This document shows positions 28,216-49,808 of a stretch of 64,000 nt of DNA, one piece after another. The stretch spans positions 682,001 through 746,000 of the forward strand of contig NZ_CP051774.1 of the NCBI RefSeq assembly GCF_012913485.1, given 5' to 3'. Numbering within the stretch: the first letter of the stretch is position 1; each line of letters begins with the position of its first letter. A program made the translations under genes and the position numbers. The notes under the pieces were generated by a model. That model did no database searches and had not been told where the DNA came from. It saw nothing but the letters and a program-made list of their open reading frames with translations. The DNA comes from Luteolibacter luteus (GTDB lineage: Bacteria; Verrucomicrobiota; Verrucomicrobiia; Verrucomicrobiales; Akkermansiaceae).

Positions 28216-28532
28216 CTGCTCGAAGACCACCCTCGCTGGCAGTAGAACGCGACCTCGGGACCTGCCAGGCTCGGCAAGAACATGCCCCTAACCCGCACCT
28301 CACCCCGACCAAGCAGCCCCCTTTGGCGAAGACCCTGTCAACAGCCAATTCACCGCCATTCCCGGACCGCCTGTTAATTTTCCTGTTTTAACAGGCGAAA
28401 CAGGCCCGAATTACCAGTGGTCCCCGCCCCGCACCCTCCCCGGTCTCGCGTTTGCACCCTCCAGCACAAGCTGCTTGGCAGAAAGCAAAACCCGGTGCTG
28501 ACAAACGCCCCGGACCCCCTACCCTCCCGGGC
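28216..28532. other. Intergenic gap upstream of dnaX
   Basis: 317 nt with no ORF I can support. It holds the 38-nt nested inverted repeat (28368-28405) and the 12-mer CTGGCAGTAGAA at 28236-28247, which recurs at 49091-49102 a similar distance upstream of the second copy. Confidence 0.5.
28368..28405 (+). repeat. Nested inverted-repeat element, copy A (upstream of dnaX)
   Basis: CGCCTGTTAA (28368-28377) and TTAACAGGCG (28388-28397) form a perfect 10-bp inverted repeat. Interleaved with it, CCTGTTT (28382-28388) can pair with AAACAGG (28398-28404). The two stems share bases, so they exclude each other or form a pseudoknot. The 38-nt element matches copy B (49229-49266) at 33 of 38 positions without gaps. 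Confidence 0.7.
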
Positions 28533-30053
28533 GTGAGCTATCAGGTCTTCGCCCGGAAATACCGCCCGAAAACCTTCGACGACGTGCTCGGCCAAGATCA
28601 CGTCGTGCGGACATTGAAGAACGCCATCGCCCAGAAGCGACTGGCGCATGCATACTTGTTCGTCGGTCCGCGCGGCACGGGGAAGACCTCGACCGCGCGC
28701 ATTCTCGCGAAGGCCCTCAATTGCACCGGAGGTCCCAAGGCGGACTTCGACCCGGATGAGGACATCTGCGTGGAGATTGCAGAAGGCCGCTCGCTCGACG
28801 TGCTGGAGATCGACGGTGCCTCGAACAACGGCGTGGAAGAAGTGCGACAGCTGCGTGAGACGGTACGCTTCGCCCCGGCCCGCGGACAGTTCAAGATCTA
28901 CTACATCGACGAGGTCCACATGCTCACCAACCAGGCCTTCAACGCCCTGTTGAAGACCTTGGAAGAGCCGCCGGAACACGTGAAGTTCATCTTCGCCACC
29001 ACCGAGGCGCATAAGATCCTCCCAACCATCCTTTCCCGCTGCCAACGCTTCGACCTCCGTCCGATCCCGGCGGAAACGATCGCACAGCACCTCCTCCACA
29101 TCGCGAAGGAGGAAAGCGTGAACCTTCACGAGTCCGCCGCATGGGCGATCGCGAAGGGCGCGGACGGCGGCATGCGCGATGCCCAATCGATGATGGACCA
29201 GCTCGTCGCCTTCTGCGGTGACACCATCACCGAGGCAAACGTGCTCGATGTCTTCGGCTTCACCTCGCGGGAAACCGTGGCTTCGGTCATCGCCGCGCTG
29301 CTGGCGCGTGATACCCCCACCGCACTCTCGACGGTGCAGCGTGAGGCGGAAGCGGGCCGCGAACTTTCCCAGCTTCTCGGCGAGCTCATCGGCGCATTGC
29401 GTGCGCTGCTGGTCGCCCGTCTCGACTCCGCCACCGGCGGCGAAGGCATCCCGACGGAAACTTGGCAGGCCTTGCTGGCCGCTGCCGAGAACTACCCGGC
29501 GGAGCGTCTGCTCTCGGTGATCGATGTCTTCGCGGAAACCGAGGGCCGCATGAAGTGGGCGTCCAACAAGCGCCTCCACTTGGAAATCGGCCTGATCAAG
29601 GCTGTCCAAACCCTCGGCGAAGTCCGGCTTTCCGATGTGATCAAGGTGCTCGCCGGAGCCAGCGATCAACTGACCTCGCCAGTCACCATCGCCGCCCCTG
29701 CCGCGGTGGTTCCTGCGGCTGCCGCGCCCATCGAGGCTCCCGCACCGCAGCCGGTCGCGGTCAGCGAACCGCTCGTGGTTCAGGAAACCCCCGTGCCCGT
29801 GGCGAAGGCTCCCGAGCCCGCGCCCGCCCCTTCGGAGCCAGGTCCCGTGCTCTCTCTGGATCAGCTCATCGAACTCGCTCCGGAAGGCCCGGCTCCCGAA
29901 CCGGAACCCGTCATTTCCGAAGCCCCGCCTTGGAAGCCGGAGCCGGTCGCAGAAGAACCACCTGCCCCGAAGGTCGATCCGATGGAGGAATTCTATAAGG
30001 ATCCTCTCATCCAATCTGCTTTGGAAATGTTCGCCGCCACCATCAAGAAGTAG
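28533..30053 (+). CDS. dnaX: DNA polymerase III subunit gamma/tau
   Basis: A 506-residue clamp-loader ATPase. It starts at GTG 28533 with SYQVFARKYRPKTFDDVLGQ, the usual N-terminus. Walker A is GPRGTGKTS, the arginine-finger region is FATTEAHKILPTILSRCQRF, and EIDGASNNGVEE plus YYIDEVHML follow in order. The zinc module is degenerate: only two of the four usual cysteines remain (LNC and DIC), with Asp/Glu at the others. The C-terminal about 120 residues are Pro/Ala/Glu-rich and poorly conserved, ending in a short helix. It is the first gene of a dnaX-ybaB operon (45-nt gap). Confidence 0.95.
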   Translation: MSYQVFARKYRPKTFDDVLGQDHVVRTLKNAIAQKRLAHAYLFVGPRGTGKTSTARILAKALNCTGGPKADFDPDEDICVEIAEGRSLDVLEIDGASNNGVEEVRQLRETVRFAPARGQFKIYYIDEVHMLTNQAFNALLKTLEEPPEHVKFIFATTEAHKILPTILSRCQRFDLRPIPAETIAQHLLHIAKEESVNLHESAAWAIAKGADGGMRDAQSMMDQLVAFCGDTITEANVLDVFGFTSRETVASVIAALLARDTPTALSTVQREAEAGRELSQLLGELIGALRALLVARLDSATGGEGIPTETWQALLAAAENYPAERLLSVIDVFAETEGRMKWASNKRLHLEIGLIKAVQTLGEVRLSDVIKVLAGASDQLTSPVTIAAPAAVVPAAAAPIEAPAPQPVAVSEPLVVQETPVPVAKAPEPAPAPSEPGPVLSLDQLIELAPEGPAPEPEPVISEAPPWKPEPVAEEPPAPKVDPMEEFYKDPLIQSALEMFAATIKK

Positions 30054-48996: not shown

Positions 48997-49376
48997 GATA
49001 CAAATGTTTAGCCCCCTTATCGCATGAAGGCCCACCTAAAGGACGATAGCCCTCCGGAGTCATGCCGCTAAACCTGCGGCGGGCGCTCCACTGGCAGTAG
49101 AAGCCTTTCTTTGCATCTGAGAAATTCCCTCCAAGATGCTTCCTACCCGCTCCTCCTCGACCATAACCGGATTCGCCGTTTCGACATTGAATCCTGGAAG
49201 TTCGATGTCCGGTCTTCTCCTTCCTTCCCGCCTGTTATTTCCCCTGTTTTATCAGGCGGAACAGGCTGCAAATTTCCGGGGTTTCCACGCTCCACTGCGG
49301 CAACAAAAACCGGAATCCGCACTTTACCGCAAATCGCTTGCAAATGCGACCCTCCTGCGCGAAGGATTTCTCGTCG
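48997..49376. other. 380-nt intergenic gap upstream of the metal ABC operon
   Basis: No convincing gene. It contains the 12-mer CTGGCAGTAGAA at 49091-49102 and copy B of the nested inverted repeat at 49229-49266, in the same order and spacing as upstream of dnaX. Confidence 0.5.
49229..49266 (+). repeat. Nested inverted-repeat element, copy B (upstream of metal ABC operon)
   Basis: CGCCTG (49229-49234) pairs with CAGGCG (49253-49258), and CCTGTT (49243-49248) with AACAGG (49260-49265), the same crossed layout as copy A at 28368-28405. It is 33/38 identical to copy A, but the outer stem is shorter because two positions differ. It lies 110 nt before the first gene of the operon. Confidence 0.65.
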
Positions 49377-49808
49377 ATGCGCGGCTCACCTCTGCTCCGA
49401 ACCTTGATCGTCCTTGCCGCGCTGCTGGTTACAGGACTCGCCTTATCGCGTCTGACCATGGCGCGCCCCTCCCCCTCTACCAGCGCGGCCAAGCAGGAAA
49501 CGAAGGCCGCTCCGGAACCGGCCCTCGCCAAGACCACCTTCGAATTGATCCTTTCCGGCACCGCGAAGGAGGTCTCCCTCGATGCCGGTGCGGCCACGGT
49601 GACGAAAACCGACACTGCCGGGCCCATCAGTGGCAGCTTGGAGCTTTCCGGGGAATCACCGGTCGTCTCGCTACGCGTGACTTGGAAAGACGAAGCGCCC
49701 GGCCATCGCTTCGCCATGCTACGCTTGGAAGTCCCGGGCAAGGACACGCTGGAACACGTCTTCACCGCCCCCGGTGAGATCGATGACATTTGGGAACCGC
49801 TGCCATGA
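49377..49808 (+). CDS. Small membrane-anchored protein, first gene of metal ABC operon
   Basis: A 143-residue protein. An N-terminal membrane helix (PLLRTLIVLAALLVTGLALS) is followed by a Ser/Ala/Pro-rich linker and a beta-sandwich-like domain with regular strands (FELILSGTAKEVSLDAGAAT, VVSLRVTWKDEAPG). It is not a ZnuA-type solute-binding protein. The stop overlaps the ABC ATPase start by 4 nt (ATGA), so it is translationally coupled to the transporter and probably acts with it. Function unknown. Confidence 0.8.
   Translation: MRGSPLLRTLIVLAALLVTGLALSRLTMARPSPSTSAAKQETKAAPEPALAKTTFELILSGTAKEVSLDAGAATVTKTDTAGPISGSLELSGESPVVSLRVTWKDEAPGHRFAMLRLEVPGKDTLEHVFTAPGEIDDIWEPLP

Follow-up and report, generated by a model that had tools for sequence, protein, structure and literature searches.

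Why does nearly the same 38-nt repeat stand upstream of both dnaX and a metal ABC transport operon in Luteolibacter luteus? We addressed this question in a window of 64,000 nt (contig NZ_CP051774.1, positions 682,001 to 746,000), which is the whole stretch of DNA analysed and supplies the coordinates below unless a chromosomal position is given. A preliminary description of this DNA had offered two answers: a leader RNA or protein-binding site shared by the two operons, or a small mobile repeat. Our analysis places both repeats in a lineage-specific family of mosaic interspersed elements with at least 143 copies.

The two repeats in the window

Copies A and B lie on one strand at the sites first described for them and are identical at 33 of 38 positions; shuffled sequences were expected to contain 0.00 such copies, whereas both are present in the window. 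The end of copy A is 128 nt from the GTG of dnaX at 28533, in agreement with the first account, and the gene carries DnaX domains. The distance of 111 nt given for copy B, measured from its end to the ATG at 49377, was also correct, but the first gene of the supposed metal ABC operon has no Pfam match; genes 2 and 3 encode an ABC ATPase (PF00005) and an ABC-3 metal-transport permease (PF00950), respectively. Each copy had been said to hold two CCTGTT and two AACAGG words. Words 1, 3 and 4 proved near-invariant, whereas the second CCTGTT is degenerate and is lost in diverged copies; word 4 is absent from one diverged copy (3568718; read by eye). In the core of copy A, CCTGTTA..(N12)..TAACAGG could pair as a hairpin, after which AACAGG occurs again as a direct repeat. 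The 51-nt folds of both window copies beat shuffles, with z values of -3.4 and -5.0. The 12-mer CTGGCAGTAGAA, reported upstream of each copy, is indeed present at 28236-28247 and 49091-49102, and the window contains five matches to it at two or fewer mismatches against 2.9 expected, which is not above chance. The features of the two copies are as follows, with offsets given relative to the core.

28237 to 28247, plus strand: 5' module a of copy A, TGGCAGTAGAA, at -133 from the core; subfamily A1
28337 to 28347, plus strand: module a' of copy A, GTCAACAGCCA, an inverted module a with two mismatches, at -33
28370 to 28404, plus strand: core of copy A; pattern match with zero mismatches, 0 in shuffles; 64.4 bits with the R1 profile
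28415 to 28425, plus strand: module b' of copy A, CAGTGGTCCCC, an inverted copy of the GGGGACCACTGG module, at +45
49092 to 49102, plus strand: 5' module a of copy B, TGGCAGTAGAA, at -139 from the core; subfamily A
49200 to 49212, plus strand: body segment of copy B, of the GTTCGATGTTCG type common in subfamily A
49231 to 49265, plus strand: core of copy B; pattern match; 62.6 bits

A species-restricted family

We searched the genome (6,412,079 bp; 6.41 Mb) with a 35-nt core pattern at three or fewer mismatches and obtained 99 matches, 52 on the forward and 47 on the reverse strand, compared with 0 for the reversed control. A core covariance profile, for which 69 copies were used, was run with a cut-off of E<1e-3; it confirmed all 99 sites and added 44, resulting in at least 143 sites with 150 of 1199 candidates scored. 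The preliminary description had made its interpretation depend on further copies in the genome, and the 99 pattern copies and at least 143 profile copies supply them. As a check on completeness, we located all exact genomic TGGCAGTAGAAA sites: 35 out of 35 have one of the 143 cores no more than 250 bp away, and 34 out of 35 share its strand. We therefore regard the 12-mer as part of the element. The 99 pattern sites were each retrieved with 8 kb of surrounding sequence, and 24 of the 44 further sites were read.

The core was found in none of 37 relatives at three or fewer mismatches and in none of 386 other genomes of the phylum sample at two or fewer mismatches with a relaxed loop. The profile gave no hit at E<1e-3 in nine congeners, the best value being 0.003 in congener G007, and TGGCAGTAGAAA occurred a single time across 15 congeners. 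Exact patterns produced 0 matches in viral contigs and GTDB contigs, a set from which records near this genome may have been excluded. Among the genomes searched, the family is thus species-restricted.

Anatomy of the element

The element is an intergenic mosaic of about 125-200 nt, with the core forming its 3' part. A typical element comprises a 5' module (TGGCAGTAGAA, module a, or GGGGACCACTGG, module b), a body that is C-rich and diverged, and a near-invariant 3' core with the consensus CCG CCTGTTA WTTTYC-N-TWTAACAGG CGG AACAGG C. At two or fewer mismatches, module a was present in 28 out of 29 members of subfamily A and 23 out of 24 members of A1. Module b was present in 16 out of 20 members of subfamily B and 10 out of 11 members of subfamily C, in which its offset was -86 to -88 (10 out of 11). 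For A1, also at two or fewer mismatches, module a' stood at -33/-34 in 11 and module b' at +44 to +46 in 15 of the 24 members. Fifteen of the 99 copies were left without a subfamily, several of which have module a when inspected by eye. Within subfamilies, cores are 88-91% identical versus 43-51% for bodies, and core variant and body type showed a loose association only (chi-square P 0.006).

When copies were aligned with one another, 433 alignments at E<1e-12 remained after filtering by position, of which 144 span the core. Three quarters of these 144 have their 3' ends at +34 to +44 (median +37), and their 5' ends scatter from -349 to -21. Weaker conserved letters in subfamilies A and A1 reach about +56, which means that some subfamilies lack a sharp 3' edge. 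The best pair of copies is 85% identical over 391 nt and, since no pair is closer, we see no recent spread. Target-site duplication was not clear in the 77 of 99 elements examined, with the best of 245 tests giving identical 3-mers in 8 out of 77 versus 2.5 expected. Terminal inverted repeats were absent as well, a/a' and b/b' being internal or one-sided inverted pairs.

Covariation did not clearly exceed that of shuffles, which reached the measures for stem 1-3 in 16-166 out of 500 cases and for stem 1-4 in 50 out of 500; each of the alternative stems (word 1 with word 3, word 1 with word 4) has one compensated copy. For this reason we regard the core hairpin as no more than plausible. A coding role was rejected: most of the variation among core codons falls on positions one and two, and a 1-nt insertion is present in diverged copies (by eye). 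At one locus (L064), we also noticed apparent tandem units of about 60 bp from -354 to about -750 from the core, with alignments to locus L034 shifting by about 60.

The dnaX upstream region and gene context

Between copy A and dnaX we located the following feature.

28499 to 28525, plus strand: probable dnaX promoter, TGACAA..N15..TACCCT, directly before the GTG, downstream of copy A and outside the element

We take TGACAA and TACCCT to be the -35 and -10 elements of this promoter. Copy A lies about 95 nt upstream of the TGACAAA box, which occurs at about equal distance from GTGAGCTA in 9 out of 15 congeners and is absent there in 6 out of 15. Conservation upstream of orthologues, to which the preliminary description had also looked, was not seen for dnaX, as 0 out of 15 congeners have the core. 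With a probable promoter between copy A and dnaX, copy A is unlikely to be a dnaX leader. The promoter-like box (28499-28535) seems to abut the GTG start, and this arrangement suggests that the dnaX mRNA may be leaderless or have almost no leader. At gathering thresholds, Rfam gave 0 matches in the window.

None of the 99 cores lies inside a gene predicted by our own gene caller. At the 96 sites with both neighbours, the strands of the neighbouring genes in core orientation were ++ in 51, +- in 20, -+ in 15 and -- in 10 cases (++ versus --, 51 versus 10, P 1e-7), and the gene behind the core was codirectional in 71 out of 96. Convergent and divergent gaps numbered 20 and 15 at cores versus 11 and 44 in the background, for which gaps of 150 nt or more were counted (P 5e-4). 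The gene ahead opposes 30 of the 99 cores and is codirectional with 69, starting 100-150 nt from the core in 38 out of 69. Of the proteins encoded by these 69 genes, 61 were scanned and match 129 Pfam families, the commonest shown in three members. The downstream genes are unrelated in function, and the 61 scanned proteins lacked the functional coherence of a regulon of one transcription factor. We rejected a riboswitch or leader RNA because of the lack of an Rfam match, the probable promoter downstream of the core and the unrelated downstream genes. A leader RNA common to the two operons, the first of the earlier proposals, likewise disagrees with the TGACAAA box in 9 out of 15 congeners and with the opposing next gene at 30 out of 99 cores.

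From about -100 to +250, C is abundant and G scarce on the core strand, the skew just upstream being 0.23 versus 0.05 in other codirectional intergenic DNA. No T-run follows the stem. The excess of C over G on the core strand was seen to enter the next gene, reaching 0.20 in the first 50 nt of site genes versus 0.07.

Spacing and orientation along the chromosome

The 143 sites are spaced more evenly than random ones, with a coefficient of variation of the gaps of 0.79 versus 0.99 +- 0.08 (P 0.001). Only one gap is shorter than 5 kb, compared with 14.9 expected, and 0 out of 5000 simulations gave as low a number. Each eighth of the chromosome holds 14-22 sites. When the profile was run over 787 kb around 98 sites, the only second copy was one 115-bp tandem, compared with about 17 predicted by mean density. 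Beyond this tandem, the nearest neighbour among the 143 sites is at least 5.9 kb away, and paired, clustered or alternating arrangements are absent from the 143 except for the same tandem. A fixed exclusion zone with otherwise random placement, which we tried and rejected, fitted best at 9 kb (KS P 0.08).

We then merged the tandem, leaving 142 sites, and compared distances by relative direction. The mean distance to the next copy was 24.1 kb for facing (n=38), 43.6 kb for same-direction (n=66) and 68.9 kb for back-to-back (n=38) sites. Facing and back-to-back distances differed in a Mann-Whitney test (P 7e-8) and under strand permutation (0 out of 10,000). With the ten weak sites dropped (132 best left), the direction effect had a P value of 1.8e-6. 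Consecutive sites less than 20 kb apart comprised 19 facing, 8 same-way and 2 back-to-back cases. These direction tests are exploratory, having been devised after inspection of the positions, and concern a single genome. For the 98 pattern sites alone, the means were 49.6, 60.2 and 94.2 kb (facing, same direction and back-to-back, respectively), with a Mann-Whitney P of 0.05 and a permutation P of 0.007. Counting pairs 1-20 kb apart among 99 sites gave 4 on the same and 5 on opposite strands, with about 14 expected of each and no strand effect (permutation 0.5); among 143 sites, it gave 8 and 21, with about 30 expected of each (permutation 0.01). Thus, near neighbours are scarce in both site sets, and the direction effect owes much to the 44 diverged copies.

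Two other repeats served as controls. The CGTC-type repeat of G007 (82 copies, 64 gaps) had a coefficient of variation of 1.13 and 8 gaps below 5 kb versus 5.6 expected, and the REP that belongs to the transposase gene at 6331330 is clustered rather than even, with 37 out of 43 copies in 60 kb. Several further explanations were tried and rejected. Gene-strand context, as a cause of the direction effect, gave facing distances of 42.9 kb versus 39.9 kb back-to-back in a 400-kb simulation. Composite islands between facing pairs were not seen, since 18 intervals hold ordinary, unrelated genes; in the intervals whose proteins were inspected, these include, as judged by eye, recA, pyrG, clpC and mcsB. 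Recent local duplication was rejected because 12 facing pattern-site pairs less than 31 kb apart were no more alike than random pairs (P 0.78); one pair of facing neighbours, L115/L116, does exceed random-pair similarity. Replichore bias was weak (60 out of 99, P 0.044, with the origin assumed at position 0; a split by GC skew was also tried). A partial literature search found no bacterial repeat with such spacing.

Relation to REPs and Y1 transposases

The genome contains five Y1_Tnp (PF01797) genes. Within about 4 kb of these five, the best match to the core has 14-16 mismatches, and modules a and b gave scattered matches at one or two mismatches only. Three Y1_Tnp genes were examined for repeats, and each is flanked by its own inverted repeats. 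For the transposase gene at 4814344, the REP is a 28-nt pattern found 16 times in the genome, with four copies at its own locus and 12 elsewhere. In ten of these 12 outside places, a core follows on the same strand, 209-256 nt downstream of the REP (for example, C1:476168 and 5166368), which suggests joint movement or insertion beside the element. Because 10 out of 12 REPs adjoin cores, the element appears to be sometimes joined to a RAYT REP in BIME fashion, yet it is not that REP. No conserved GTAG or CGTC tag was seen by eye beside the palindrome in the aligned core and flanks; GTAG was found inside module a, about 100 nt or more upstream of the core. The family resembles known REPs in preferring unidirectional and convergent gaps: REPs in general are reported to sit downstream of coding regions, in intervals whose flanking genes are unidirectional or convergent (PMC3733652).

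The control repeats showed features of their own. The 37 copies of the 6331330 REP occupy a single block, C1:6313727-6373750, and this REP occurs mostly as inverted pairs about 210 bp apart that recur every few kb. In G007 (contigs C1-C20), the CGTC-type hairpin repeat CGTCGACGNNACGTCGACACCCCTTA has 82 copies with a strong strand bias by contig (C1, 12 out of 12 minus; C5, 17 out of 18 plus), as if oriented by replication.

Explanations for the family

The reading we prefer, to which we give a probability of about 0.6, is a mosaic family with mobile-like spread, a polar core recognised by a protein and exclusion of near copies. Of the earlier proposals, the small mobile repeat fits best with the 143 copies, the subfamilies and the copy alignments, most of which end within 10 nt of the 3' end of the core; a protein-binding site may also apply, in a wider, chromosome-wide sense. 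The family probably spread as a non-autonomous mobile element resembling a BIME or MITE, and we would hold this more firmly if weak similarity past the core in A and A1 did not blur the 3' edge. The core would still be recognised by a protein as a polar site, as the core and end modules resist divergence and the body does not. A copy near another, above all in the same direction or back-to-back, would then either not be inserted or not be kept. In the former case, insertion immunity would act mainly behind the core; in the latter, for which we see a real but smaller chance, a standing chromosomal function would select the spacing. The preferred reading has to accommodate a core found near none of the five Y1 transposases (PF01797), the sole enzyme type sought, together with the lack of a clear target-site duplication, a most similar pair of only 85% identity and covariation not clearly above shuffles.

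The strongest competitor, although we consider it rather unlikely, is that a resident RAYT (Y1 tyrosine transposase) moves an ordinary REP/BIME family that is functionless in itself. It would account for a family that is intergenic, palindromic, species-restricted and mosaic, for the 4814344 REP 209-256 nt upstream of a core at 10 of its 12 outside places, and for the gene context that REPs in general are reported to prefer (PMC3733652). However, around the five Y1_Tnp genes the core is at best 14-16 mismatches away and the modules have only scattered matches, and both REP-type controls behave otherwise, one being packed into 60 kb (37 out of 43) and the other having a gap variation of 1.13. 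Less likely again is a polar chromosome-organising site, at which a core-bound protein would act from one side by blocking or loading a translocating machine; facing pairs would then close short segments and back-to-back cores bound long ones. Orientation-dependent spacing, the depletion of near neighbours, a near-invariant core beside a strongly diverged body and a uniform chromosomal density (14-22 per eighth) all agree with such a site, but the pattern was seen in one species, with exploratory statistics from one genome, and the partial literature search found no such oriented bacterial system. On its furthest extension, which we put forward as slightly more doubtful still, a mosaic repeat would have given one lineage about 143 directional marks, and these would partition the chromosome as a bacterial counterpart of oriented insulators.

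We give a low likelihood to the view that the core serves the gene behind it as a transcription terminator or 3' UTR element, whether Rho-dependent or mRNA-stabilising. The codirectional gene behind (71 out of 96), the over-representation of convergent gaps (P 5e-4) and the C-rich, G-poor core strand just upstream (0.23 versus 0.05) point towards it, whereas the stem has no T-run after it, the C-richness continues past the core into the next gene, and neither mutual exclusion over 5-20 kb nor a dependence on the direction of a far neighbour would be expected of terminators. The leader RNA or operator common to dnaX and the metal ABC operon, as first proposed, is very improbable as an account of the family, and copies A and B are probably not leader RNAs of either. 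Their positions 128 and 111 nt before start codons, and the 38 of 69 codirectional genes that start at 100-150 nt, would fit this proposal; the 129 Pfam families over 61 downstream proteins, the missing Rfam match, the probable dnaX promoter downstream of the core, the absence of the core from 15 congeners and the opposing gene ahead of 30 out of 99 cores do not.

Interspersed palindromic repeats are usually viewed as by-products of transposases and are often clustered. Here, we describe a single-species family whose copies are distributed in such a way that they avoid one another and the distance between neighbours follows their relative direction. In the tests made, neither random placement nor local gene context produced this positional rule. 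Either insertion immunity would act directionally over about 20 kb, or the copies would serve a polar function on the scale of the chromosome.

Comparison with known systems

Like BIMEs and REPs, the family is species-restricted, has more than 100 intergenic palindromic copies built from a few short modules, and prefers unidirectional and convergent gaps; with 99 and 143 copies, it shows the REP trait of high-copy intergenic palindromes of 20-40 nt. Unlike them, it has no GTAG or CGTC tag beside the palindrome, is absent from the five Y1 transposase genes, and occurs as single copies, without clusters or alternating arrays, whose spacing is over-even and orientation-dependent. With REPINs and MITEs, it shares a short repeated unit, conserved end modules, no sign of coding and a similarity that mostly stops near the 3' edge of the core, whereas its ends are not mutual inverted repeats, it has no clear target-site duplication, and its bodies are strongly diverged beside a near-invariant core.

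DNA uptake sequences (USS/DUS) are likewise short sequences found genome-wide; they have thousands of copies, and USS are evenly spaced. The present family differs from them in having 143 copies, a 35-nt core with modules and a spacing that depends on direction. In pattern only, it is also analogous to oriented chromatin boundaries of the CTCF type, in that both are polar non-coding sites among which facing pairs stand out. By contrast with those boundaries, the family is bacterial and known from its positional order alone, and here the facing pairs are the close ones.
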